Shown here piece after piece: positions 3,222 through 32,012 of a stretch of DNA of 64,000 nucleotides. The position numbers and the translations under genes are program-made. The notes under the pieces were generated by a model. That model saw only the letters and a list, made by a program, of their open reading frames with translations, was not told where the DNA came from and made no database searches. The DNA is from an uncultured Pelagibacteraceae bacterium (GTDB taxonomy: Bacteria > Pseudomonadota > Alphaproteobacteria > Pelagibacterales > Pelagibacteraceae), in assembly GCA_902560075.1 (NCBI GenBank), contig CACEKE010000001.1, positions 124,001 through 188,000 on the forward strand, written 5' to 3'. Numbering within the stretch: the stretch's first letter is position 1; every line of letters begins with the position of its first letter.

Positions 3222-4058
3222 TTAAGTTATGCTAAAATACTCAAAGAAGGATCTAACAGAAACAATAAGCAAAAAACAGCCAAATATTCTACTAAGTAAT
3301 TTTTTGTTTATTTTATAAACAACTTTAGCTCCTATTCGTGCCATTATCATTGTTATAGGGACAAATACAATAAAACCTAGGAGATTAATATAACCATAAG
3401 AGAACGGAGATTTTACATTGTCAATTATATTTCCACCAATGATCATTGTTGTTGTTCCTGTTAAAGCAATTAAAAAACCAACTGCAGCAGCTGTGCCAAT
3501 AGATGTACGGATATCATAACCAAATGTTCTTAAAAACGGAACCATCAACGAACCACCACCTATTCCTAATGGCACCGATATAAATCCAATTAATAAACCT
3601 GATATATTTTTAACCATTTTTGAAATCTCTTTAGGATTTTCTAATAATTTATCTCTAAAAAATATAAAAAATAGGCCAACGCAAAATGAAAAAAAGGCAA
3701 AAAATAAAACCAAAGCTGGGGTTTTCATATTAACAGCTAAAAATGTACCCGCTAGAACCCCAAGCACAATTAACAAACCAAAAGTTTTAACCATTTTAAA
3801 ATCAACAGCTTTATATTCCATATGTGTTTTTGTAGATATGATTGAAGTTGGAATAATAATTGCGAGTGATGTTCCAACTGATAAATGCATTCTCGTTAAG
3901 ATATCAAAATCTAGTACGCTAAAAGCATAGTATAAAGCTGGAACCATTATAATTCCTCCACCAACACCCAACAATCCTGCCATAAAGCCAGCTATAGTTG
4001 CTGCAATAGCTAAAACTGTGAGTAAATTTATAATTGTACTAGTATCTATGTTTTCCAT
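3222..4058 (-). CDS. TSUP/TauE-SafE family membrane exporter (copy 2)
   Basis: 278 aa with about eight membrane segments. The two internally repeated family motifs are better preserved than in copy 1: GFMAGLLGVGGGIIMVPALYY near residue 24 and GFISVPLGIGGGSLMVPFL near residue 158. Its last codon region abuts the second copy downstream (20-bp gap), and its start overlaps the dusA stop by one base (4058), indicating translational coupling. Proposed role: export of sulfite or a related anion across the inner membrane. Heteromeric function with copy 1 is possible but not shown by the sequence. Confidence 0.84.
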   Translation of the reverse strand: MENIDTSTIINLLTVLAIAATIAGFMAGLLGVGGGIIMVPALYYAFSVLDFDILTRMHLSVGTSLAIIIPTSIISTKTHMEYKAVDFKMVKTFGLLIVLGVLAGTFLAVNMKTPALVLFFAFFSFCVGLFFIFFRDKLLENPKEISKMVKNISGLLIGFISVPLGIGGGSLMVPFLRTFGYDIRTSIGTAAAVGFLIALTGTTTMIIGGNIIDNVKSPFSYGYINLLGFIVFVPITMIMARIGAKVVYKINKKLLSRIFGCFLLIVSVRSFFEYFSIT

Positions 4059-5062
4059 TAAATTGAAGCTTGATTTGCTTTCTCATTATTTTGAGCAATA
4101 TCCATGATGTGTTTTGCTTTTTGAAAATCAGAATCTCTTGCCATCATATTGTCACTTAAATATCTTTTCCACTCTTTAGAACCAGGTTGTCCATGATACA
4201 AACCAACAGTATGTCTCATTATATGATTAACTTTAGTCCCATTTTTAACCTCCTCTTCTAAATAACTTAAAAGTTTTTTAACAATATCCTCTCTTGATAA
4301 AATATTAGTATTGTTAAAAATTTCTTTTTCTATTTCACTTAAAAAGTAAGGATTTTGATAAATAGCTCTTCCAATCATTACACCATCGCAATTTTGTAAA
4401 TGATTTTTTATTTGGTCTGTGGAGGTAATGCCTCCATTTATAATAATTTCTAAATCTGGGTTTGATTTCTTTATTTCATATACCATTTTATAGTTTAGCT
4501 TAGGAATATTAAGGTTTTGTTTTGGTGTTAACCCTTTTAAAATAGCCTTTCTAGCATGTAAAATGATAGTCGATGATCCAGCGTCCTTAATTTTATTGAT
4601 AAACATATTTAGATAATCAAATTCTTCAGTATTATCAAAACCAATTCTTGTTTTTGCAGTAACTGGAATTTTACAAGAATTAGACATTTCATTAATACAT
4701 TCTGCAACAAGATCTGGTTCTTTCATTAAACACGCACCAAAAGAATTTTTTTGTACTTTTTTACTAGGGCACCCTAGATTAAGATTTATCTCGTCGTAAC
4801 CTAAATCCTCTGAGATTTTAGCTACCTCAGATAGCTCTTTTTTATCAGAACCACCTACTTGCAGTGCAACAGGTTTTTCTTCCTCTCTAAATCCTAATAT
4901 TTTTTTTCTATCCCCATGAATTGCCGACTTTGTTGCAACCATCTCTGAATACAGCATTACATTTTTGCTTATAAGTCTTAAAAAAAATCTATCATGTCTG
5001 TCTGTGCAATCCATCATAGGTGCAACAGAAATTTTTCTATTAATCTTTCTATTAATATCCAA
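4058..5062 (-). CDS. dusA: tRNA-dihydrouridine synthase A
   Basis: 334-aa FMN-dependent TIM-barrel enzyme that reduces uridines in the tRNA D-loop. Visible motifs: ISVAPMMDCTDRHDR at the N-terminus (DusA type), the NLNLGCPS loop at 94-100, the catalytic cysteine in NSFGACLM (Cys111), and the barrel-end phosphate-binding segments IINGGI and GVMIGRAIYQNP. Its start overlaps the end of dctM by 11 bp and its stop overlaps the TSUP gene start, so it is embedded in a transport operon to which it has no obvious functional tie. Full family length, no anomalies. Confidence 0.93.
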   Translation of the reverse strand: MDINRKINRKISVAPMMDCTDRHDRFFLRLISKNVMLYSEMVATKSAIHGDRKKILGFREEEKPVALQVGGSDKKELSEVAKISEDLGYDEINLNLGCPSKKVQKNSFGACLMKEPDLVAECINEMSNSCKIPVTAKTRIGFDNTEEFDYLNMFINKIKDAGSSTIILHARKAILKGLTPKQNLNIPKLNYKMVYEIKKSNPDLEIIINGGITSTDQIKNHLQNCDGVMIGRAIYQNPYFLSEIEKEIFNNTNILSREDIVKKLLSYLEEEVKNGTKVNHIMRHTVGLYHGQPGSKEWKRYLSDNMMARDSDFQKAKHIMDIAQNNEKANQASI

Positions 5063-8027: not shown

Positions 8028-9170
8028 ATGAATGGTCCTTTAAAAGATTTATTAGTTGTAGACTTAACAAGAGTATTGGTTGGTCCTTATTGCACAATGA
8101 TATTGTCCGATTTAGGTGCAAGGGTTATTAAAATAGAGGCTCCAGAAATAGGAGACGATTCAAGAAAGTTTGGACCTTTTGTAAAAGATTACTCTGCATA
8201 TTTTATGTCTTTAAATAGAGGTAAAGAGAGCATTGCTTTAAATTTAAAAAATGAAGATGATAAAAAAATATTCGAAAAAATTTTAGCTAAAGCTGACATT
8301 CTCGTTGAAAATTTTAAGCCTGGAACATTAGAGAAATGGGGTTTGGGTTGGAAACAAGTTTCAAAAAAATATCCTAAATTAATTTATGCTTCAGCATCAG
8401 GTTTTGGACAAACGGGTCCATTGAAAGAATTACCAGCGTATGACATGGTAGTACAAGGTATGGGCGGATTAATGAGCGTTACAGGCCAACCTAATTCAGA
8501 ACCAACAAGAGTGGGGACATCAATTGGTGACATTACTGCAGGATTATTTACAGCTATAGGAATAAATGCTGCTTTATATGATAGACAAAAAACAGGTAAG
8601 GGGATGTACATAGACGTATCAATGTTAGATTGTCAAATTGCAATCCTAGAAAACGCGATTGCAAGATATTTATCTAAAAATGAAATTCCTAAACCAATGG
8701 GATCTCGTCATCCATCGATTGCTCCATTTGAAGCTTTTAAGACAAAAGATAGTTACATAATAATTGCAGCAGGTAACGATAAACTATTTGAAAATTTGTG
8801 TAATGCTTTAGATCTCAAAGATTTAATAATGGATGAAAAATACAAATCAAATTCTTTGAGGAGTGAAAATATGAATGAGTTGAAAAAAATTCTAGAACAG
8901 AAACTTATTAATAAAACTACAAATGAATGGGTTAAAAATTTAGAAAGTTTGAAAATTCCATGTGGTCCAATTTTTAATATAAAAGAAGCGGTTGAAAATC
9001 CTCAGGTAGAGGCAAGAAATATGATCGTTAAAGCTTATCATAAAGTTATTGGAGATTTTAAACTTGCTGGTAATCCAATTAAAATGTCCACATATAAAGA
9101 TGAAAAAACTCGAGGAGACATCCCAGATTTAGACGAACACAGGGAAAAAATTATTAAAGAATTTAATTAA
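8028..9170 (+). CDS. CoA-transferase family III (CaiB/BaiF) protein
   Basis: 380 aa from the ATG at 8028 (MNGPLKDLLVVDLTR). A TTG at 8001 would add nine non-conserved residues. Class III features: the N-terminal VVDLTRVLVGPYCTMILSDLGA, IKIEAPE, and the catalytic aspartate candidate Asp139 in LPAYDMVVQGMGGLMS; the C-terminal half has the family's GRHPSIAPFEAFKTKD-like segment. These enzymes transfer CoA between carboxylic acids in the cytosol. It diverges from dctP with an 89-bp gap, so it may activate the acid imported by that TRAP system. The 3' end overlaps cmk tail-to-tail by 8 bp. Substrate unknown. Confidence 0.88.
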   Translation: MNGPLKDLLVVDLTRVLVGPYCTMILSDLGARVIKIEAPEIGDDSRKFGPFVKDYSAYFMSLNRGKESIALNLKNEDDKKIFEKILAKADILVENFKPGTLEKWGLGWKQVSKKYPKLIYASASGFGQTGPLKELPAYDMVVQGMGGLMSVTGQPNSEPTRVGTSIGDITAGLFTAIGINAALYDRQKTGKGMYIDVSMLDCQIAILENAIARYLSKNEIPKPMGSRHPSIAPFEAFKTKDSYIIIAAGNDKLFENLCNALDLKDLIMDEKYKSNSLRSENMNELKKILEQKLINKTTNEWVKNLESLKIPCGPIFNIKEAVENPQVEARNMIVKAYHKVIGDFKLAGNPIKMSTYKDEKTRGDIPDLDEHREKIIKEFN

Positions 9171-9795
9171 TTTTTTTTTCAATAGCATCTGACATTTTTT
9201 TTATCATCATCTTTTTATTTAAAATGTCAGTTCTTATCAAAATTGCATCTTTAGCTTTTTTTAGTGGGCTATGCTTTCTTTTTTTATCCATTGAAGTACG
9301 TTTGCTTAAAGATTTACTAACTTCTTTTAATGATATTTTTTTTTTTAAATCAACCCATCTCCTATAACTTGCTTTTTTAAGACTACATTTAAAGTAAAAT
9401 GCAATATCATATTTAGGATTTTTTTTTAATATTGTGGACGCAATGTCCCTACCCTCAACGCAAATTCTTTTGTTATTTTTAATTAATTTTTTTTGTGTTT
9501 TCTTCATAATCAATCTAACATTTTTAATTTTAGCTAATGGACCTACATGTTCATCAATTTTTTGTGTATGAAGATTTAATTTTGATATATTTTTATAATT
9601 AATACTCTTAAATTTTTTATTTAAAAACATAATTAAATTTTTAGGTTTGTTATCAATAATCAATTTACTCGCATATCTATAAAGTAATCCAGAGTTTATA
9701 AGTAGTAATTTATATTTTTTTGATATTAATTTTGCTCCGGTACTTTTTCCACTAGCCGCTTCGCCATCACATGCAATAATCAATGATTTTTTCAT
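9163..9795 (-). CDS. cmk: Cytidylate kinase
   Basis: 210 aa. Walker A loop GEAASGKST at residues 11-19, and the CMP-kinase signature CVEGRDIASTILKKNPKYDIAFYF in the centre, followed by the lid-like Arg/Lys-rich stretch. It phosphorylates CMP and dCMP to the diphosphates for nucleic-acid synthesis. Slightly shorter and more Lys-rich than enterobacterial CMK, as expected for this AT-rich genome. Its stop region shares the octamer TTAATTAA with the stop of the convergent CoA-transferase gene. Confidence 0.88.
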   Translation of the reverse strand: MKKSLIIACDGEAASGKSTGAKLISKKYKLLLINSGLLYRYASKLIIDNKPKNLIMFLNKKFKSINYKNISKLNLHTQKIDEHVGPLAKIKNVRLIMKKTQKKLIKNNKRICVEGRDIASTILKKNPKYDIAFYFKCSLKKASYRRWVDLKKKISLKEVSKSLSKRTSMDKKRKHSPLKKAKDAILIRTDILNKKMMIKKMSDAIEKKIN

Positions 9796-9855
9796 AAATT
9801 ATGAATGAATTTATTATATTTTATTAAGAAATTTTTTAAAAGAAATATAAATTAA

Positions 9856-10377
9856 TTATTGATCGTTTGTATCGGAAGCATCTGAAGCATTGGCAGTCTC
9901 TTGATCTTTTAATTCATCAATTGAGACTTCGGCTTCTTCGCTCTCTTCGCTAGGAATTTCTTGAGAAACTTGATCTGTTGAATTTTGTAATTCATTTAAA
10001 TCATCTTTAGATACTTGTATTTTCTCTGGTATTTTTCTAGCTCTTTTAGATGGTAGTATTGGAACACCACTTTTTGAAATTTCACCTTTATATAAATTTT
10101 CGAAATCATCACCTACTTCTTCATCCTCTTCAGAAGTTTCATCAACTTGTTCCACATGTTTTCTTAACTTATAAACTGCACTATCAGTTAAATCTGAAAC
10201 CTTAACATTTTCGTTAGCAATTTCTCTAAGGGCTATAACAGTATTTTTGTCATTATCTCTATCAACAGTTGCTTCTAGACCTGAATTTAGTTGTGTTGCT
10301 CTTTCTTTAGCAACAAGCACTAGCTCATAAGGACTGTCAACTTTATCGATGCAATCTTCTACTGTTACTCTAGCCAT
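9856..10377 (-). CDS. rpoZ: RNA polymerase omega subunit with acidic C-terminal extension
   Basis: The first about 65 residues match omega ([30 protein letters not shown] and [11 protein letters not shown]). Omega binds beta-prime and assists RNA polymerase assembly. At 173 aa it is roughly twice the length of E. coli omega. The extra C-terminal part contains a basic patch ([13 protein letters not shown]) and long Glu/Asp/Ser-rich low-complexity tracts. The extension's function is unknown. Start chosen at the canonical MARVTVEDC. Confidence 0.92.
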
Positions 10378-10415
10378 GCGAGGTATTTATACTTGGTTAA
10401 GGAATAAATCAAGTT

Positions 10416-11627
10416 TTAATTATATAACTTAGGATTTAGTTTTCCTCTTATAGAAAATAAAGAAATAAGAGAAATCGATATGTATATTGCTGATATCACT
10501 CCAATTTGCTCTATAGAAAAACCCCTATCTATTAAATAACCAAATAAAGCAGTTCCAAATGCCGTTGCAAATACCATTAATGCAGTTGTTAAGGCTTTTA
10601 TTGATCCAATATATTTTACACCATAAATTTCTGCCCATGTTGAAGATCCTAGTACGTTTGCAAATCCATTAGATATTCCGATTAATCCGAGAAAAATAAA
10701 AGCTGTAAAAGACTGATCAAAATAAATGATTACAAAGACTGAAATCAATAAAGGTATATTCATATAAACAATTAATTTTCTGCTAGTAAATTTATCTATT
10801 AAAATTCCAGATATGATTAAAGTTATAACAGACAAAATTGAGTAAGCCATAAAAGATTGCGCAATTATATAAGGGCCCCAATTTTTTGAGCTTAAAATAA
10901 ATGATTGATAAACGAAAGTTCCAGTTGCTATCCAAGGCATAGCCAACATATTTGCACAAATAATATAAAATCTATAATCTTTTAAAACTTCAATTCTTTT
11001 CCAATTTTTAATATTTTTTTCTTTTTGTTTCTCTTTTCCATCTGTTTCTCTAGACTCGAAATTGAGATTCTTTACTAAAAAATATGAAGCTAAAGGCAAA
11101 ATTATTAAAACTATTAGAGAAATAGATTTCCATATAGTTTTCCAATCGTAAATTGATAAAAGATAAATAATTAATACAGGTAAAATAAATTCTGCTGAAG
11201 ACAAACCAAACCAGCTAGTGCTTAAAGCTTTCCCACGAGATTTTGTAAAATATCTTGATACTGTAGTCGTTGCTGTGTGAGACATCATGCCTTGACCAGA
11301 GAATCTCATAAAGAATATAGCTAAGAATAATAGAAAAGTTGATGATATAGTTGAAAAAAAAAAACTAGAAAATGATAACAATAAAATTACAAAAAATGCA
11401 AATTTTGATATATTTATGTCGTCTATTTTTTTCCCAAACCAAATTAAAACAAAACTACTTAGCAAAGTTGCTGAAGCATAAATTGAACCAAATTGTCCAT
11501 GCGTAATTGATAATTCGTTTCTTATACTAGTATTAAATAACCCTAAAAAAAAACTCTGTCCAAAACTTGAAAAAAATGTAAATATAAAACCAAATAAAAT
11601 TACTTTTAAACTTAAATTTTTAAACAT
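10416..11627 (-). CDS. Major facilitator superfamily transporter
   Basis: 403 aa with 12 predicted membrane segments. The MFS motif between helices 2 and 3 is recognisable (FVLIWFGKKIDDINIS), and a second-half counterpart appears as SGILIDKFTSRKLIVY. A basic cytoplasmic loop rich in Glu and Lys (SRETDGKEKQKEKNIKN) separates the two six-helix halves. It is a secondary transporter in the inner membrane; nothing in the sequence identifies the substrate. It diverges from the dehydrogenase gene at 11633 with only five bases between start codons, so the two genes' promoters must lie inside each other's coding regions. Confidence 0.85.
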   Translation of the reverse strand: MFKNLSLKVILFGFIFTFFSSFGQSFFLGLFNTSIRNELSITHGQFGSIYASATLLSSFVLIWFGKKIDDINISKFAFFVILLLSFSSFFFSTISSTFLLFLAIFFMRFSGQGMMSHTATTTVSRYFTKSRGKALSTSWFGLSSAEFILPVLIIYLLSIYDWKTIWKSISLIVLIILPLASYFLVKNLNFESRETDGKEKQKEKNIKNWKRIEVLKDYRFYIICANMLAMPWIATGTFVYQSFILSSKNWGPYIIAQSFMAYSILSVITLIISGILIDKFTSRKLIVYMNIPLLISVFVIIYFDQSFTAFIFLGLIGISNGFANVLGSSTWAEIYGVKYIGSIKALTTALMVFATAFGTALFGYLIDRGFSIEQIGVISAIYISISLISLFSIRGKLNPKLYN

Positions 11628-11632
11628 ATTAA

Positions 11633-12502
11633 ATGACTTGTAACGTAGCTTTCATTGGTCTTGGTGTCATGGGATATCCGATGGCTGGTTATATATCAAA
11701 AGGTGGACATAATGTAACTGTTTTTAATAGAACAAAATCAAAAGCAGAAAAATGGATTAGTGAATTTGAAGGTAAATTGGCCAACACACCTGAAGAGGCA
11801 GCAAAAGATGCTGAGTATATATTTACCTGCGTTGGAAATGATAACGATTTAAGAGAAGTGACCTTTGGTGATAAAGGAGCTTTTAAAAGTATTAAAAAAG
11901 GATCAGTTTATATTGATAATACAACTGCGTCCGCAAAAATAGCAAAAGAAATTTATGACTATGCAAAAAAAAATGGTTTTGGTTCCTTAGATGCTCCTGT
12001 TTCAGGCGGACAAGCTGGAGCAGAAAATGGTGCTCTTACTGTAATGATAGGAGGGGATCAAGCTGACTTTGACAAAGCTAAAGACAAAATTGAGTGTTAC
12101 AGTAAGAAAATGAAACTATTGGGTGGACCGGGAAATGGACAACTAGCAAAAATGGTAAATCAAATATGTATTGCTGGTTTAGTGCAAGGATTATCAGAAG
12201 GTATTAATTTTGGTATGAAAGCTGGATTAAATATGGAAGATGTAATTGAAGTTATTTCTAAAGGTGCAGCTCAATCTTGGCAAATGGAAAACAGATATAA
12301 GACAATGATTAATGATAAATTTGATTTTGGTTTTGCTGTAGATTGGATGAGAAAAGATCTTAAAATCGCAATGGATGAAGCTAAAAATAATGGTTCATTG
12401 TTACCTGTAACAGAACTTGTTGATAAATATTACTCAGAAGTACAGGATATGGGTGGAAACAGATTAGATACTTCAAGCTTAATCAAGAGATTTAGGAAGT
12501 AA
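11633..12502 (+). CDS. NAD(P)-dependent 3-hydroxyisobutyrate-type dehydrogenase
   Basis: 289 aa of the beta-hydroxyacid dehydrogenase family. It shows the Rossmann motif GLGVMGYPMAGYI starting at residue 9, the substrate-binding loop DAPVSGGQAGAENGALTVMIGG and the catalytic lysine region GNGQLAKMVNQ. Members oxidise 3-hydroxyisobutyrate or reduce tartronate semialdehyde or succinic semialdehyde; the substrate cannot be resolved here. The gene is followed after 6 bp by an FMN oxidase-like gene, probably co-transcribed. The start fits the family N-terminus exactly, leaving a 5-bp divergent gap to the MFS gene. Confidence 0.88.
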   Translation: MTCNVAFIGLGVMGYPMAGYISKGGHNVTVFNRTKSKAEKWISEFEGKLANTPEEAAKDAEYIFTCVGNDNDLREVTFGDKGAFKSIKKGSVYIDNTTASAKIAKEIYDYAKKNGFGSLDAPVSGGQAGAENGALTVMIGGDQADFDKAKDKIECYSKKMKLLGGPGNGQLAKMVNQICIAGLVQGLSEGINFGMKAGLNMEDVIEVISKGAAQSWQMENRYKTMINDKFDFGFAVDWMRKDLKIAMDEAKNNGSLLPVTELVDKYYSEVQDMGGNRLDTSSLIKRFRK

Positions 12503-12508
12503 TATTGT

Positions 12509-13108
12509 ATGCAGCCAGCATACTATGAAGATTTAAAAGAAATTCAGAATAAGTATTGGTCAATGCTTGATGACGCTGTAAAAAATAGAAATTCACCTTT
12601 TAGAATTCCTGTATTTATTTGTTCAGACCAAAATGAAATTGATGGTAGGATAGTTGTGTTAAGAAAATCAGATAGAAGTAATAATCTTTTACAATTTCAT
12701 ACTGATTTAAGATCTTCTAAAATAAATATTTTAAACAAAAACAAAAATGCATCACTAGTTTTTTATGACAAAGAAGAAAAAATTCAATTGCGAGTAAAAG
12801 TAGAATGTATAATTAATAATAAAAATTCTATAACTGAGGACTCTTGGAAAAAAACACAACATATAAGTAGAAGATGTTATTTAACTGATGATCCACCTGG
12901 AACAATTTCAAATAATCCAACCTCAGGAATGATTTCAAAATTAGAAGATTTTGATTACACGATGGAACAAAGTGAAGAAGGGTATAAAAATTTTACAGTT
13001 ATTCAATGTAAAATTAAATCTATTGAGTGGCTTTATTTAGCAGCAAAAGGGCATAGAAGAGCTAAGTTTGATTTTGAAAATAAAAAGGAAAGTTGGTTAG
13101 TACCTTGA
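12509..13108 (+). CDS. Pyridoxamine 5'-phosphate oxidase-like FMN-binding protein
   Basis: 199 aa with the split-barrel FMN-binding fold pattern: DGRIVVLRKSDRSNNLLQFHTDLRSSKINIL (FMN phosphate contacts), ASLVFYDKEEKIQLRVKVEC and a C-terminal IEWLYLAAKGHRRAKFDF. True PdxH enzymes oxidise PNP or PMP to PLP. This protein resembles the broader family of such proteins of unknown substrate found in alphaproteobacteria, so PLP synthesis is not assured. The stop codon TGA overlaps the probable TTG start of the next gene. Confidence 0.75.
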   Translation: MQPAYYEDLKEIQNKYWSMLDDAVKNRNSPFRIPVFICSDQNEIDGRIVVLRKSDRSNNLLQFHTDLRSSKINILNKNKNASLVFYDKEEKIQLRVKVECIINNKNSITEDSWKKTQHISRRCYLTDDPPGTISNNPTSGMISKLEDFDYTMEQSEEGYKNFTVIQCKIKSIEWLYLAAKGHRRAKFDFENKKESWLVP

Positions 13109-13500
13109 CGAAAAAATATAAAGCAATGGTCCTCTCATGTATAGATCCAAGATTTCAGAAAAAAGTATATAATTATTTAAAAAATAAAAAGCTTTCAGGG
13201 AAATATAGTTCATTTACAATAGCAGGTTCTGCCATAGGCGTAACTAATAAAAAATTTAAAAAATGGCATAAAACATTTTGGGATAATCTAGACATATCAA
13301 TTAAATTACATAAAATATCCAAATTAATCGTTATTAACCATGAAGATTGTGGTGCAGCAAAAATTGTTAATAATAATAAAAAATTTAATTCGTTAATTGA
13401 AAAAAAAATTCACAAGGAGTCTTTTAAAAATATGAAGAAAATTATAACTAAAAGATATCCTTATTTGAAAGTAAGTTGTACAACATTATCTCTAAGGTAA
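13105..13500 (+). CDS. Small beta-carbonic-anhydrase-like protein
   Basis: About 131 aa. The zinc-site pattern of beta-carbonic anhydrases is present in short form: CIDPRF near the N-terminus (C-x-D-x-R) and NHEDCGAA (H-x-x-C) in the middle. It is much shorter than canonical enzymes (about 200 aa), lacking the C-terminal region, so activity is uncertain. I take TTG at 13105, whose TTGA overlaps the preceding stop, as the start; TTG at 13093 and ATG at 13126 are alternatives. Lysine-rich throughout. Confidence 0.6.
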   Translation: MTKKYKAMVLSCIDPRFQKKVYNYLKNKKLSGKYSSFTIAGSAIGVTNKKFKKWHKTFWDNLDISIKLHKISKLIVINHEDCGAAKIVNNNKKFNSLIEKKIHKESFKNMKKIITKRYPYLKVSCTTLSLR

Positions 13501-13501
13501 A

Positions 13502-15472
13502 ATGTCATTAGAAAAACAAGCTGTAGAGGCATTTAGAAATAATAATTTTAATGAGTCATTAAAATTATTAAAAAAATTTATTGAAACAAACCCAAATTCA
13601 AATGAAGCATACAATTTTTTAGGAATCGTTTATTTAAAGTTAAAAAAATATGATTTTGCAAAAAATTCTTGGGAAAAAGCAAATAACATTAACGCAAATT
13701 ATATTGATCCATTAATAAATATTGCAAATTTATTTATTCAGGAGGAAAAATTTGAGATTGCAATAAGCTATTTAAATAAAGCACTTTTAATTGAACCGGA
13801 GAATTTTAAATTAAGTTTAATGTTAGGTAATACTTTTATGATGATAAATAAATTTGAGAAAGCTTTAGAAAATTTAAATTCTGCAATCAAAATTAATTCT
13901 AATAACTTTGAGCCTTATTATTTAAAAGGATTGGTCTATAACAATATGAATAAGTTGGAAGATGCGATTAAAAATTTTAATTTATCTTTGAGTTTTAATC
14001 AATCTCATCAAGATACGTTGTATTCTCTTGCAGTTTCCTATCGAGAAATTAAAAATTTTGTAAAATCAAGAGAAATTTTTATAAAACTTTATGAGTTAAA
14101 TAATAATTACAATTACCTCTTAGGATCTATATTTTTCATAAATAATAGAATTTGTAATTGGATTAACTATGAAAAAAATATGGAATTGATTAAAAAAAAA
14201 ATTTTGAACAACGAAAAATCTATAACGCCCTGGGCAGCCTTATCAATTTTCGACTCACCCGAGATACAAATGATTAATACAAAAATTTATACAGATTTTG
14301 AAAATACTCAAAAAAAAGAAATAGATATAAAAAAAAATACTAATGAAAAAATTAATATAGGATACTTTTCTGGTAATTTTTGTAAGCATGCAGTTGCTTT
14401 TCAAATAAATAAAATGTTGCAACAGCATAATACAAAAAAATTTAATATTTATATATTTAACTTTACAAATTCTCATAATAATTTGATTAAAAATGAATAT
14501 AAAAATATTAAAGAAATATTTAATGTTTCGGACTTGAGTGATGTTGAAATAGTTAATCTCTCAAAAAAAAACAAGATAGACATTGCAATAGATTTGATGG
14601 GTTTTACTAAAGGAAATCGTTTCAATATTTTTAAACAAAGGTGTGCCCCACTACAAGTAAACTTTTTAGGATATGCTGGAACTTCGGCGATTAAAAATAT
14701 GGATTATTTAATTGCAGATAGCACAGTTGTTAATAGTTCAAATAGGCAATTTTTTACAGAAAATATTATTTTTATGCCAAATTCGTTTATGGTTAATGAC
14801 GATGATCTAAATATTGATAACATAAATTTTAAAAGATCAGATTTGAAAACAAATGATGTCAATTTAATTTTTTGCTCTCTTAATAAAAATTATAAAATTA
14901 ATCCTAAAATTTTTAGTTTATGGATGCAAATTTTAAAAAAAGTGGATGGTTCTATTTTATTACTTAATTATGCAGATGATATTGCAAAGTATAATATTTT
15001 AGAAAATTGTAAAAATTTTAATGTTCCTAAGCAAAGAATAAAATTTTTAGAATATACAAAAAGTTACAATGAATATTTATCAAAAATTAAAAATGTTGAT
15101 ATTTTTTTAGATACATTTCCATATTCTGCTCACTCCACTGGAAGTAGTGCATTATGGTGCGGGATCCCAATTATTACAAAAAGTGGAAATAGTTTTACAA
15201 GTAATGTTGCATCAAGCATGCTCAAAGCTTTAGATCTTGAAGAATTGATAACTATAAACGATGAAGAATATATAAAATTAGCTATTAGCATGGCTAAAGA
15301 TAAAGAAATTTTAAAAAAAATAAAATTAAAGTTAAAAAATAACAAATTATCAAAATCATTATTTAACACAAAAAAATATACCAGAAATATCGAAAGAGCA
15401 TTTGAAAATATTTACTCATTGAAATGTAAAAATAAAAAGCTTGTTGATTTTGAAGTTAATAAATTATTATAA
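13502..15472 (+). CDS. TPR protein with O-GlcNAc transferase (SPINDLY/GT41-like) domain
   Basis: 656 aa. Residues 1 to about 210 form five to six tetratricopeptide repeats (for example NSNEAYNFLGIVYLKLKKYD and NFEPYYLKGLVYNNMNKLED). Residues about 280-640 match the bacterial GT41 catalytic region, with IGYFSGNFCKHAVAF, a PLQVNFLGYAGTSA segment, FLDTFPYSAHSTGSSALWCGIP and the UDP-contacting SGNSFTSNVASSMLKAL. Such enzymes attach a sugar to Ser/Thr or Asn of proteins, or act in surface glycan synthesis. The gene starts one base after the previous stop. The acceptor is unknown. Confidence 0.82.
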   Translation: MSLEKQAVEAFRNNNFNESLKLLKKFIETNPNSNEAYNFLGIVYLKLKKYDFAKNSWEKANNINANYIDPLINIANLFIQEEKFEIAISYLNKALLIEPENFKLSLMLGNTFMMINKFEKALENLNSAIKINSNNFEPYYLKGLVYNNMNKLEDAIKNFNLSLSFNQSHQDTLYSLAVSYREIKNFVKSREIFIKLYELNNNYNYLLGSIFFINNRICNWINYEKNMELIKKKILNNEKSITPWAALSIFDSPEIQMINTKIYTDFENTQKKEIDIKKNTNEKINIGYFSGNFCKHAVAFQINKMLQQHNTKKFNIYIFNFTNSHNNLIKNEYKNIKEIFNVSDLSDVEIVNLSKKNKIDIAIDLMGFTKGNRFNIFKQRCAPLQVNFLGYAGTSAIKNMDYLIADSTVVNSSNRQFFTENIIFMPNSFMVNDDDLNIDNINFKRSDLKTNDVNLIFCSLNKNYKINPKIFSLWMQILKKVDGSILLLNYADDIAKYNILENCKNFNVPKQRIKFLEYTKSYNEYLSKIKNVDIFLDTFPYSAHSTGSSALWCGIPIITKSGNSFTSNVASSMLKALDLEELITINDEEYIKLAISMAKDKEILKKIKLKLKNNKLSKSLFNTKKYTRNIERAFENIYSLKCKNKKLVDFEVNKLL

Positions 15473-29550: not shown

Positions 29551-30077
29551 TGATTACAAAAACAAAATTTAAAGGTCTAATTATTATAAAAAATAAAACC
29601 TTTAAGGATAAAAGAGGTTATTTCAAAGAACTTTTTAGAGAAAAAGAAATTAATAAAAAATTTCCTTTTATTGTTATGTCTCAATCAAAAAAAAATGTGA
29701 TTAGAGGGCTACATATTCAAACGAGTGCTAAGCAGGGGAAATTTATTTCGGTCATAAAAGGCAAAATTTTTGATGTAGCTTTAGATTTAAGAAAAGGCTC
29801 AAAAACTTTTGGAAAATATTTTTCAATTTATCTTAGCGAAAAAAATTCTTTGTCAATATACATACCTCCAGGGTTTGCCCATGGTTTTTGTGGACTTGAA
29901 AAAGAGAATTATATGCTTTACAGCTGCACAAATTACAGACATAAAAACTCAGAAATTGGTATTCGATTTAATGACGAAACACTTAAAATAAAATGGCCAA
30001 TTAAAAATCCAATATTATCAATAAAAGATAAGAATAATATAAATTTTAAGGATTATAAAAAAAAATATAAATTATAA
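29550..30077 (+). CDS. rfbC: dTDP-4-dehydrorhamnose 3,5-epimerase
   Basis: 175-aa cupin. Shows the substrate-binding RGYFKELFRE, the catalytic-His motif VIRGLHIQTSAKQGKFI, FDVALDLRKGSKTFGKY and IPPGFAHGFCGLEKENYMLYSC. It epimerises C3 and C5 of the 4-keto sugar. The reductase rfbD is not adjacent (a tRNA gene follows), so either it lies elsewhere or the product is another deoxysugar. Confidence 0.93.
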   Translation: MITKTKFKGLIIIKNKTFKDKRGYFKELFREKEINKKFPFIVMSQSKKNVIRGLHIQTSAKQGKFISVIKGKIFDVALDLRKGSKTFGKYFSIYLSEKNSLSIYIPPGFAHGFCGLEKENYMLYSCTNYRHKNSEIGIRFNDETLKIKWPIKNPILSIKDKNNINFKDYKKKYKL

Positions 30078-30082
30078 TCTTT

Positions 30083-30159
30083 TGGTAGCGGGAAGTGGGA
30101 TCGAACCACTGACCTCGGGCTTATGAGTCCCGCGCTCTAACCAACTGAGCTACCCCGCC
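30083..30159 (-). tRNA. tRNA-Met (CAU), intact copy
   Basis: 77 nt with encoded CCA. The parts read from the 5' end: GGCGGGG acceptor, TA, D-arm GCTC-loop-GAGC, anticodon loop CTCATAA (anticodon CAU), T-arm with TTCGATC, acceptor TCCCGCT, A, CCA. G1 pairs with U72 as a wobble and A31 opposes G39, a mismatch at the loop-proximal end of the anticodon stem. Overall similarity to alphaproteobacterial elongator tRNA-Met is stronger than to tRNA-Ile2, but CAU alone does not settle that. Its first 63 nt recur exactly at 31733-31795. Confidence 0.9.
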
Positions 30160-30175
30160 TTAAAATAAATGTTGG

Positions 30176-30203
30176 TTTATACTACTTATTTTTTTTCTTT
30201 CAA
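30176..30203 (-). promoter_or_regulatory. Sigma70-type promoter of the intact tRNA-Met
   Basis: On the minus strand TTGAAA (30203-30198), a 16-bp spacer and TATAAA (30181-30176) stand 16 bp before the tRNA 5' end. It lies within the tRNA-flanked element, so the element supplies the promoter of the working tRNA gene. The -10 region (AGTAGTATA) is shared with the promoter of the broken copy. Confidence 0.6.
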
Positions 30204-30242
30204 ACAAGAAAATCAAAAAATGCGTTTAATAACACTTTATCT

Positions 30243-30271
30243 GTGGACCGTAAGTGGACCAAAATTGGACC
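30243..30271 (+). repeat. 11-bp-phased GTGGACC repeats, left end of element
   Basis: GTGGACC at 30243-30249 and 30254-30260, then TTGGACC at 30265-30271, each exactly 11 bp after the previous one. One-helical-turn spacing near an attachment repeat is what arm-type integrase sites look like. The same heptamer with the same period occurs at the other end (31678-31695). Confidence 0.6.
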
Positions 30272-30326
30272 GGAAATCCTGGTCACGTGGAGACCCGTGC
30301 GTGATAAATTATTTTTATCATTTCAA

Positions 30327-30839
30327 CTAAAATTTTTTATCCTCTTGTTTTTCACACTGCATAAAATGTTTATACTTTGCTGTAATGCTTTCATTAACTA
30401 TGGTGTTATGTTGAGCAATAACTAAATTTCTTCTATCTCTCTGCTCTACTGGGTTTTCTCCTCTTAAAGGTTTATCTTCACTACCCATGACAGGAAATTC
30501 AATATTGACCTTTAATCTTTCTATAAAAACTTTATTTTTATCAATCTTATAAACTTCATCTATATCATAGACATAAAGATAGCCACTTCCAGTATACCTA
30601 TCTATTTTATAAATAAAAAAATCATTAACTTTTCTATTCTCAATAGTAACAAATATGTTTTCATCAGTTATAGCTGCAGGAATTTTATGATTTGCTAAGT
30701 AATACTCATTTTCTAAATCAAATTTTAAAGAAACTGGCATTCCCTCATTTTTCTCTTTGCAAGATAATATTAATATTTCTGAAAAAGCTGTTTTAAAACT
30801 AAACAAGCTCAATAAAATAAGTAAAAATATTCTTATCAT
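30327..30839 (-). CDS. Hypothetical exported protein
   Basis: 170 aa with a signal peptide (hydrophobic residues 3-18, likely cleavage after FKTAFS or nearby). The mature part looks beta-rich (SLKFDLENEYYLANHKI, NIFVTIENRK, GYLYVYDID) and has two cysteines, Cys27 in LSCKEK and Cys162 near the C-terminus (MQCEKQ), which could pair. No family recognised. Last gene of the element's minus-strand set; its start is 37 bp after the stop of the 56-aa gene. Cargo of unknown function. Confidence 0.6.
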   Translation of the reverse strand: MIRIFLLILLSLFSFKTAFSEILILSCKEKNEGMPVSLKFDLENEYYLANHKIPAAITDENIFVTIENRKVNDFFIYKIDRYTGSGYLYVYDIDEVYKIDKNKVFIERLKVNIEFPVMGSEDKPLRGENPVEQRDRRNLVIAQHNTIVNESITAKYKHFMQCEKQEDKKF

Positions 30840-30876
30840 ACACTAACAATACCAAGGTATGGCTATTGGACCAAGT

Positions 30877-31047
30877 TTATTTATTTTTTATTGTCCAGCC
30901 GTTCTTTTCTAAAGCTTTAATTAAATTTCTTTTCATCTCATCTCTTGAGGTTTTTTGATCACCTATTTTTTCAAAAAACACAGGTTCTAATCCCCTGTCC
31001 TTTTTTGATTTAAAATAGTTTTTTATTGATTGTATTATTATTTTCAT
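30877..31047 (-). CDS. 56-aa basic small protein
   Basis: Reads MKIIIQSIKNYFKSKKDRG at the start and ends ALEKNGWTIKNK. A strong Shine-Dalgarno AAGGAG stands five bases before the ATG, unusual in this window and good support for translation. A decayed homologue, 18 codons long before a stop, lies at 54927-54983 with the same upstream leader. The first 13 residues are nearly identical between the two. The rest is Lys-rich and probably helical; function unknown. Confidence 0.6.
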   Translation of the reverse strand: MKIIIQSIKNYFKSKKDRGLEPVFFEKIGDQKTSRDEMKRNLIKALEKNGWTIKNK

Positions 31048-31109
31048 TTTGCTCCTTTAGCGTTGTGTTTAAAGTCCCAGCAAGTAGAGTTTTTTTCTAA
31101 ATCAGGACT
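31048..31109 (-). ncRNA. Putative structured 62-nt leader (copy A)
   Basis: Minus-strand sequence from AGTCCTGATTTAG to the start codon of the 56-aa gene. It matches copy B (54984-55045) at 51 of 62 positions without gaps. AGTCC pairs with GGACT, extended by U-G here and U-A in copy B. An inner UAGA/UCUA stem can nest inside. The CUCU of the inner stem could also pair with the ribosome-binding tract, so translational control is conceivable. A protein-binding DNA site is the alternative. Confidence 0.45.
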
Positions 31110-31115
31110 AGTAAT

Positions 31116-31289
31116 TTATACTACATCTAAGATCCAAAAGTAAATCCCCAATAAAACCATTCCTAAAGCCATATAATAAGTTTTATCTGCATAAGGTGTG
31201 AAACCACCAATAATCCAAACGATAACTCCTATTGAAATGCATGCGAAAGGTTTTTTGGTGAATAAAGATTTCCAACCTTGATCTTCCAT
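31116..31289 (-). CDS. 57-aa two-helix membrane miniprotein
   Basis: Begins MEDQGWKSLFTKKPFACIS and has two hydrophobic segments, about residues 16-30 and 40-57, separated by TPYADKTYY. It starts two bases after the stop of the 123-aa gene, so the two are probably co-translated. The stop lies just upstream of the structured leader. Unknown function. Confidence 0.5.
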   Translation of the reverse strand: MEDQGWKSLFTKKPFACISIGVIVWIIGGFTPYADKTYYMALGMVLLGIYFWILDVV

Positions 31290-31290
31290 T

Positions 31291-31662
31291 TTAAATATTT
31301 TTTTTTAAATCTACCCAAAAATTGTTTATACCTCTATCTTTTTTTAATCGATCTAAATCTTCTAAAAAACCGTTAGGGGTATTCACTATTTTGAGTTTAG
31401 ATAATTCTTTTTTTAATTTCTCGTTTGTATAATAATCAAGTTCTGCCATAGCTTTTTCTTTTTTGTTAAGGTTTTCTCTAATATCTACCGCAAACATTTT
31501 AACATCATTATCATCTAAACCTTTTCCACCTTCTAGATTAATTAAACAGCTTTGTATCGTTGAATGAGCCCAATCAATTGTATCTTTTAATCTTTCAATC
31601 TCAAAAACAATGCTTTCAAGTTCCTTTAATTTTCCATCTTTATCATTAAAAATTTTTTTCAC
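31291..31662 (-). CDS. Hypothetical 123-aa coiled-coil protein
   Basis: Starts with GTG (MKKIFNDKDGKLKELESIVFEI) and is mostly helical and charged, with heptad-like stretches at 10-40 and 65-95. No enzymatic motif or family recognised. First gene of the element when read from the broken tRNA end; the tRNA promoter at 31812-31840 points directly into it. Confidence 0.5.
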   Translation of the reverse strand: MKKIFNDKDGKLKELESIVFEIERLKDTIDWAHSTIQSCLINLEGGKGLDDNDVKMFAVDIRENLNKKEKAMAELDYYTNEKLKKELSKLKIVNTPNGFLEDLDRLKKDRGINNFWVDLKKNI

Positions 31663-31677
31663 TTTGTAATACTATCA

Positions 31678-31695
31678 GTGGACCACCAGTGGACC
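31678..31695 (+). repeat. 11-bp-phased GTGGACC repeats, right end of element
   Basis: GTGGACC at 31678-31684 and 31689-31695, exactly 11 bp apart, 38 bp from the right tRNA repeat. Same heptamer, strand and period as at the left end. Confidence 0.6.
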
Positions 31696-31732
31696 AATAT
31701 TTATGTTTGCTTGAATTAATTAAGAAATGTAG

Positions 31733-31795
31733 GGGATCGAACCACTGACCTCGGGCTTATGAGTCCCGCGCTCTAACCAACTGAGCTACCCCGCC
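31733..31795 (-). pseudogene. Truncated tRNA-Met (CAU), 5' 63 nt only
   Basis: Identical to positions 1-63 of the intact tRNA, from the acceptor 5' strand through the T-loop, then diverges into CTACATTTC. It lacks the 3' T-stem, the 3' acceptor strand and CCA, so it cannot fold into a tRNA. It retains its own promoter. Interpreted as the attachment-site remnant left when the element entered the gene. Confidence 0.85.
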
Positions 31796-31811
31796 ATTAA
31801 ATTAAAATTGA

Positions 31812-31840
31812 TATATACTACTTTGATCTTTATGAAGCAA
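31812..31840 (-). promoter_or_regulatory. Sigma70-type promoter of the truncated tRNA, facing the element genes
   Basis: TTGCTT (31840-31835), 17-bp spacer, TATATA (31817-31812), ending 16 bp before the tRNA 5' end, the same distance as at the intact copy. Transcription from here would pass through the tRNA fragment and straight into the element's minus-strand genes. Confidence 0.55.
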
Positions 31841-32012
31841 TATGCTTAATAAGATAATATAATATGCCAGTAATAATTGTTGCAATTACAAAACCCTCTG
31901 AAAATAAAATTAAAATTTTTTTCTTATCATTATAATTTGTTCTTAAATAAACATGCACTAGCGTGTAAATACCTACAATTGCAATACTTAATAGAATATC
32001 TGTTGCTAACAT
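31830..32012 (-). CDS. Small two-helix membrane protein
   Basis: 60 aa from the ATG at 32012 (MLATDILLSIAIVG); a start at 32042 would add ten residues overlapping the pmbA end. Hydrophobic segments at about 3-22 and 38-55 flank a basic loop (RTNYNDKKK). It follows the pmbA stop by 4 bp and its 3' end overlaps the -35 box of the truncated tRNA. Function unknown. Confidence 0.6.
   Translation of the reverse strand: MLATDILLSIAIVGIYTLVHVYLRTNYNDKKKILILFSEGFVIATIITGILYYLIKHIAS

Follow-up and report, generated by a model that had tools for sequence, protein, structure and literature searches.

A putative non-autonomous integrative element at the 5′ side of tRNA-Met(CAU) in SAR11, with sister elements that share its ends and differ in cargo

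Can a DNA segment of 1.57 kb that contains four small genes and no integrase be an integrative element? This question is raised by a locus in an uncultured Pelagibacteraceae bacterium (SAR11; assembly GCA_902560075.1, contig CACEKE010000001.1, positions 124,001 to 188,000; this stretch of 64,000 nucleotides is called the window here), in which a tRNA-Met(CAU) gene and a copy of its own first 63 nt bracket such a segment. Comparisons with related genomes show that the bracketed segment is inserted DNA, that both of its ends hold GGTCCAC repeats with 11-bp spacing and that sister elements share these ends and differ in cargo. We take the segment for a non-autonomous integrative element of small size that sits 5′ of tRNA-Met(CAU), a reading to which we assign a probability of about 0.7, and the borrowing of an integrase in trans is probably the best explanation of how it integrated.

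The tRNA-Met-bracketed segment is inserted DNA

The tRNA-Met gene, the only tRNA that ARAGORN detected in the window, and its displaced 5′ fragment lie 1,636 bp apart from start to start, with 1,573 bp between the end of the fragment and the start of the full tRNA (Table 1). A 63-nt exact match is no chance event, and the similarity extends upstream into a single ungapped 91-nt repeat (92%). The initial annotation, made from the sequence of the window, had described an exact repeat of tRNA nt 1-63 that brackets four small genes and no integrase, and both parts were confirmed, the latter by the list of open reading frames (ORFs), Pfam and PHROGs: four same-strand ORFs of 123, 57, 56 and 170 aa lie inside the element, with no recombinase among them in the Pfam and PHROGs searches. 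It had also held that the tRNA takes its upstream region and 5′ end from the element side. This is borne out by the DNA upstream of the full tRNA: only its last 28-45 bp can be aligned with the host DNA that precedes the fragment, and in alignments it is part of the right end common to other elements. Judged by these alignments, the working tRNA-Met has its 5′ part from the element and its 3′ end from the chromosome.

The empty site in relatives that the initial annotation had proposed to look for was found in the genome G136, where the gene order is TldE - 60-aa ORF - tRNA - rfbC without a fragment, as against TldE - small ORF - [fragment, element, tRNA] - rfbC in the window; the same genes thus stand on either side. 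When the flanks from the window were joined with the tRNA (605 + 77 + 682 bp), the query aligned to G136 in one piece from position 1 to 1364 (77.8%). G142 has a similar site, also free of the fragment. The content of the locus is variable, as had likewise been anticipated: the two genomes with the most similar left flanks found are G406 (95.9% over 320 bp), whose element belongs to the window's class and contains different genes, and G221 (94.7% over 320 bp), whose element encodes an integrase.

Table 1. Features of the tRNA-Met locus (positions in the window).
Feature	Position	Strand	Basis
Working tRNA-Met(CAU/CAT)	30083..30159	-	ARAGORN; Rfam tRNA 62.6 bits; shared-end comparison
Element-borne upstream segment of the tRNA, putative promoter	30160..30242	-	Shared right end in alignments; promoter function inferred
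Right repeats GGTCCAA-N4-GGTCCAC-N4-GGTCCAC, candidate arm-type recombinase sites	30243..30271	-	Motif listing, alignments
Cargo ORF, 170 aa	30327..30839	-	N-terminus signal-peptide-like by eye; MRJP 13.3 bits, below cut-off
TTGGTCCAA, possible decayed internal repeat in the gap between the 56-aa and 170-aa genes	30866..30874	-	Sequence, 13-locus alignment; inference
56-aa ORF	30877..31047	-	Small family, in 13/22 loci and elsewhere in the genus
SAM-II riboswitch-like leader ahead of the 56-aa ORF	31037..31118	-	Rfam SAM_alpha 25.3 bits, E 0.0096
Cargo ORF, 57 aa	31116..31289	-	No Pfam family; weak PHROG of unknown function, E 0.12
Cargo ORF, 123 aa, GTG start, first gene past the left repeats	31291..31662	-	ORF list
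Conserved left end of the element family	31672..31732	-	Alignment with G008 and G123, locus listing
Left repeats GGTCCAC-TGGT-GGTCCAC, candidate arm-type recombinase sites	31678..31695	-	Motif listing
Displaced 5′ fragment of tRNA-Met, nt 1-63, identical	31733..31795	-	Sequence comparison
Chromosomal tRNA upstream segment, putative promoter, now ahead of fragment and cargo	31796..31823	-	Part of the 91-nt repeat; matches G221, G406 and G142 flanks

Paired end repeats and a family of sister elements

Just inside both ends of the element are pairs of GGTCCAC (GTGGACC on the plus strand) with a spacing of 11 bp (30243-30260 and 31678-31695), and these end pairs account for four of the five GTGGACC copies in the window (1.07 expected in shuffles). 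A search that went through the tRNA and not the motif found the same nt 1-63 fragment in three of 151 genomes of the genus, one of them that of the window; the exact repeat-pair pattern occurs in 5 of the 151, among them all three with the fragment. The end repeats, the 22-genome family described below, the integrase-encoding sisters and the internal repeats between modules were absent from the initial annotation.

A scan of one genome per species (84,980 species) with a 20-mer of the motif gave 20 loci. Nineteen of them, on 18 records titled Pelagibacteraceae, are located at tRNA-Met; the remaining one (L099) is unrelated. When two mismatches are allowed, the motif is found in 15 of 399 genus genomes, at tRNA-Met in 13. 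These 13 and 9 further genomes reached via the species-wide scan make up the 22 loci considered here; L099 (genome G408) and the two-mismatch matches in G385 and G339, for which the stretch fetched contains no tRNA-Met, were dropped before counting. G408, a metagenome-assembled genome titled Pseudomonadota, has two contigs with the 20-mer (C104, C126), an exact copy in one case and a copy with a single mismatch in the other. The fragment is kept in 14 of the 22 loci, identical to nt 1-63 in 12 and with one mismatch in G406 and eight in G403. Thirteen of these 14 loci have an exact left pair, and the repeats precede the tRNA in all 21 loci that keep the full tRNA. Thirteen elements are complete on one contig, measure 998-3,795 bp from start to start and have variable cargo, and one locus shows the fragment only, at a contig end.

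Internal repeat sites between gene modules occur in 4 of the 22 loci (G008, G252, G401 and G402). There are four modules and three internal sites in G252, each site preceded by AAATAGATATT, which also stands before one site each in G008 and G401 and so precedes five internal sites; the site in G402 is degenerate and not preceded by AAATAGATATT, and G401 has a further site before which no tRNA fragment was seen. From site to site, G252 and G401 have 692 bp in common (96.8%), with unrelated sequence on either side. The only site of G404, and likewise of G029, is the one at the right end; in G404 left-end-like sequence abuts it, as if the array were empty. A right module of ~450 bp, consisting of the 56-aa ORF and the right end, is common to most loci with the 56-aa ORF (86-98%), and a further gene follows this ORF in G252, G008 and the window. 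Clear internal sites are present in G252, and the window has only one possible decayed site.

The cargo of the sisters was examined with 14 proteins from 12 loci searched against Pfam, 10 of them also against PADLOC. Families above cut-off were HNH (G008), ResIII helicase (G297), T5orf172 (G155), DUF4379 and CapR (G362), PDDEXK_5 (G400), Mrr_cat and TerB (G407), DUF6804 (G252) and NUMOD3 (G405); five proteins (from G123, G401, G402 and G403 and one of G252) matched no Pfam family above cut-off. In PADLOC, the G297 protein matched a type IIG restriction enzyme with 235 bits, and nuclease-type cargo, as assigned by family matches, is common among the sister proteins scanned. A defence function of the window's own cargo found no family support in Pfam or PHROGs. 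A relative of its 123-aa protein (48% over 113 aa) adjoins another 5′ tRNA-Met fragment, in G052.

The 56-aa ORF was considered as a hallmark of the element or as an excisionase, and it was rejected as a hallmark because 56 of 300 genus genomes contain its family (four with a best E > 0.001) and all six extra loci read lie away from the repeats; its structure prediction was too poor for use (mean predicted local distance difference test score 61.7). ORFs of 55-60 aa stand behind a near-invariant SAM-II-like leader (window 30877-31118; L194, L197, L200-L203), and the leader is also recognisable in six loci of the 56-aa family outside elements. Its scores in the window (25.3 bits) and in five sister loci (24.3-27.7) all lie below the SAM-II (RF00521) gathering cut-off of 36 bits. 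For Pelagibacter, the available excerpt of an earlier study describes tandem SAM-II/SAM-V and SAM-V riboswitches (PMC2704228).

Integrase-encoding sisters and competing explanations

Other 5′-type elements at tRNA-Met have repeat pairs of their own at both ends, namely GATCACA in G076, G241, G305 and G367, all integrase-free, and (T)GACACA in G061. The GATCACA pattern is found in 8 of the 399 genus genomes, and in G186 it belongs to a complete, integrase-encoding element of 5,467 bp with repeats at both ends, in the order fragment 1-58, repeats, integrase, 671-aa AAA protein, three small ORFs, GATCACA cluster and full tRNA. This first gene encodes a 329-aa tyrosine integrase, P0001 (PF00589, E 2e-17; PHROG integrase, E 2e-47), with relatives at E <= 1e-8 in 27 of the 399 genomes. 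The right end of the G186 element (L160 reversed, last 190 bp before the tRNA at 10761) contains at least six clustered GATCACA copies, which is denser than an arm site needs and resembles replication iterons. Further integrase-encoding 5′-type elements at tRNA-Met were read in G221 (left-end repeats GGGCACA) and in G283, G302 and G344 (TGTGACA); G186 and G221 have the integrase gene at the left end, the other three at the right. The same repeat stands at both ends in G302 and G344, and the fit is poorer for G221, where the right end has mostly another repeat (GGACTCA), and for G283, where the scan did not find the left pair. An exact 7-mer pair, spaced 11 bp in 10 loci and 12 bp in 5, stands 60 bp or less ahead of the integrase start in 15 of 18 readable integrase loci (20 tried), a count made without a shuffle control. 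The 7.6-kb element of G302 (L208 7101-11981) also contains three large genes that by eye resemble a type I restriction-modification set.

The arm-type sites of tyrosine integrases are normally paired repeats on either side of a tRNA-derived core. Such sites flanking tRNA cores are mentioned in the accessible part of PMC10865867. Because the GATCACA class has integrase-encoding and integrase-free members with the same repeats, borrowing in trans is probably the best explanation, and the GGTCCAC class would, by analogy, depend on an integrase not yet seen. In the proposed mechanism, a tyrosine integrase from another element or a phage would bind the GGTCCAC repeats as arm-type sites and catalyse a crossover, in the region of the anticodon arm, between the tRNA segment of the element and the chromosomal tRNA. 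Because the element carries tRNA nt 1-63 and an upstream segment, insertion pushes the 5′ part of the host tRNA to the opposite end and reconstitutes the tRNA from the element's 5′ part and the host's 3′ end. The old chromosomal tRNA promoter would then point into the cargo and might drive it. A consensus promoter scan of 30040-31960 gave 7 sites, against 9.9 in shuffles, and none in the segment upstream of the tRNA; promoter and terminator scans of the element gave nothing above shuffles.

The crossover can be narrowed down by a second-site insertion of the GATCACA class in G011 and G027, counted as one event because the cargo is the same, where the left copy comprises tRNA 22-56 and the right copy tRNA 1-46/51. 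The exchange point of this class accordingly maps, as far as the copies tell, to within nt 22-51, and the copies of the G061 class suggest one before about nt 37; for the window's class it is not placeable because both copies are identical. In G122, tRNA-Met core pieces (nt 20-59 and 16-55) and a GATCACA-like pair occur inside prepilin-like gene arrays, directly before one prepilin-like gene (L164 ~8343-8960, read reversed, and L165 ~3457-4189).

Several results weigh against a borrowed integrase. The insertion proposed by the initial annotation stands, and the recombinase that would match the repeats of the element was looked for in vain: neither the 22 family genomes nor the virus contigs scanned revealed an integrase with GGTCCAC repeats, and although PF00589 matches are present in 18 of the 22 family genomes, none lies inside an element. 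In G297 (99%, a single contig), which contains a complete element, there is only one integrase-family match, presumably of Xer size. Five pattern scans of the virus contigs gave one repeat match, L080, and no match to the left end of the element or the tRNA core, and scans of these contigs for the 56-aa family and for P0001 gave pattern matches and no relatives. Eight of the 22 loci have the right end and the tRNA and no fragment; contig ends are close by in G017 and G405, and the stretch read for the other six holds no fragment. The motif counts among the 22 loci are partly circular because the loci were gathered by motif. Present-day mobility of the GGTCCAC elements has no direct evidence. 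A helper integrase could have been missed because most genomes are incomplete.

L080 was judged a chance match in a GC-rich phage coding region. A viral origin of the helper gained no support from the pattern scans or from a comparison with 194 phage records, none of which covers 80% of the element; the matches are short, and many of those listed (the best 20 of 194) are phage tRNA-Met genes. No Phage_integrase (PF00589) match was found in the whole assembly to which the window belongs (1.18 Mb, 20 contigs, 90% complete), not even one of Xer size, which is probably in the missing 10%.

An integrase lost once from an old element, with the conserved ends (tRNA and right module) since serving as homology for cargo swapping, would account for the lack of a helper, for a right module that is so similar across loci and for the eight loci without a left fragment, and homologous recombination is frequent in SAR11. 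Such a fossil island is nevertheless unlikely, given that 13 of 14 loci have letter-perfect left repeats, that only 2 of the 14 displaced fragments deviate from nt 1-63 and that the GATCACA class has inserted at a second site in G011/G027.

The internal sites raise another possibility. Integron gene-cassette arrays consist of gene modules delimited by a repeated short site, with variable content, and some of the sister loci look alike in this respect, so that the repeat pair might join modules into an array by cassette-type exchange. The array of G252, the module shared by G252 and G401 that starts and ends at two sites, and G404 and G029, which resemble arrays without cassettes, would fit. 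On the other hand, 18 of the 22 loci (several of them truncated) have no intact internal site, the GATCACA-class elements read have none, and short-homology recombination in the shared leaders gives the same pattern and is the plainer account; we know of no recombinase for cassette exchange at these sites. The loci also differ from integrons in being anchored at a tRNA, in a site that consists of two 7-nt direct repeats and in the lack of an integron integrase (no PF00589 match in the 90% complete assembly). Cassette exchange is conceivable because repeats lie between modules and the shared module is bounded by two sites, and yet we regard it as quite improbable that common-leader modules are added and removed singly behind a SAR11 tRNA promoter by a recombinase acting at the GGTCCAC sites and not only at the tRNA.

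Even less probable is a purely regulatory role of the repeats, in which they would serve the first gene, or a former integrase gene, as operator or promoter. Their position shortly before the first start codon in the window and just upstream of the integrase in the integrase-encoding elements suits this role; it leaves unexplained why they also stand at the other end, ahead of the tRNA only, in 21 of 21 loci, and why the same repeat occupies both ends in the window's class, the GATCACA elements, G302 and G344 and differs between classes. Operator and recombination roles are not exclusive. A tandem duplication or an assembly artefact, to which draft assemblies and the 63-nt repeat alone might point, is already refuted by the empty site and by 13 complete copies whose cargo differs, among them that of the single-contig genome G297.

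Relation to known elements and meaning for SAR11

A non-autonomous integrative element of this kind shares traits with several described systems, which are compared here as far as excerpts of the cited publications describe them. As the initial annotation rightly said, integration usually duplicates the 3′ end of a tRNA, and islands with a 5′ fragment had already been counted in the Islander catalogue (159 versus 3,760 with a 3′ fragment; PMC4383910). Like these, the element combines a full tRNA with a displaced 5′ fragment upstream and a tRNA rebuilt on insertion; it has neither the integrase gene nor the length of at least 2 kb that the catalogue requires (PMC4383910). Of the marks of a tRNA-targeted island, it shows the fragment on the matching side and the empty site (G136) and lacks an internal integrase.

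Cis-mobilizable elements (CIMEs) likewise have attachment-site ends and no integration genes and are moved by a related element (PMC3146451). A related element with matching sites is present for GATCACA (G186) and was not found for GGTCCAC, and the element described here differs from CIMEs in its 5′-type ends and small size, and in that the loci read show no tandem accretion with an integrase-encoding 5′-type element. The tycheposons of Prochlorococcus and OM43/Methylopumilus are also marine cargo elements with a tRNA border, tRNA-Met being among the tRNAs named, and they measure 4-200 kb and have a tyrosine recombinase, unlike the 1.6-kb element without one (PMC10872708). In contrast to phage satellites, no phage-related packaging, replication or regulation genes were found in the element with PHROGs; the best match was a family of unknown function (E 4e-4), and a major-head-protein family matched at E 0.14 only. 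A different solution to the same problem is that of phages which interrupt a tRNA of the host and supply one themselves (PMC10865867). The elements of G186, G221, G283, G302 and G344 share the tRNA, the 5′ configuration and paired 11-bp-spaced repeats with the element, and differ in encoding a tyrosine integrase and in carrying other repeats. Going by the excerpts, islands with a 5′ fragment, islands that have attachment ends and lack an integrase, and marine cargo elements bordered by a tRNA are already described; a description of these SAR11 tRNA-Met elements was not found in the open-licence literature.

The 3′ side of tRNA-Met is an insertion hotspot as well: at least 10 of the 151 genus genomes have 3′ fragments (L050-L059; nt 24/25/27/28/31/33-77), which mostly bracket 0.6-3.5 kb of small cargo genes. 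In G402, a 425-aa integrase and, by eye, phage-like genes lie on this side (L122 reversed 9425-15012), so that the same tRNA has a GGTCCAC element on its 5′ side and a phage-like integrase gene on its 3′ side.

SAR11 bacteria, which are abundant in the ocean, have small, streamlined genomes with few known mobile elements, which raises the question of how they gain genes. The sharing of GATCACA repeats by integrase-encoding and integrase-free elements is what borrowing predicts, and the 5′ configuration predicts that each insertion would swap promoters, the tRNA receiving that of the element and the cargo that of the chromosome. With elements of 1-8 kb at one tRNA, in several repeat classes and with or without an integrase, these loci would offer a natural test system for helper-dependent transfer and for the specificity of arm-type sites.

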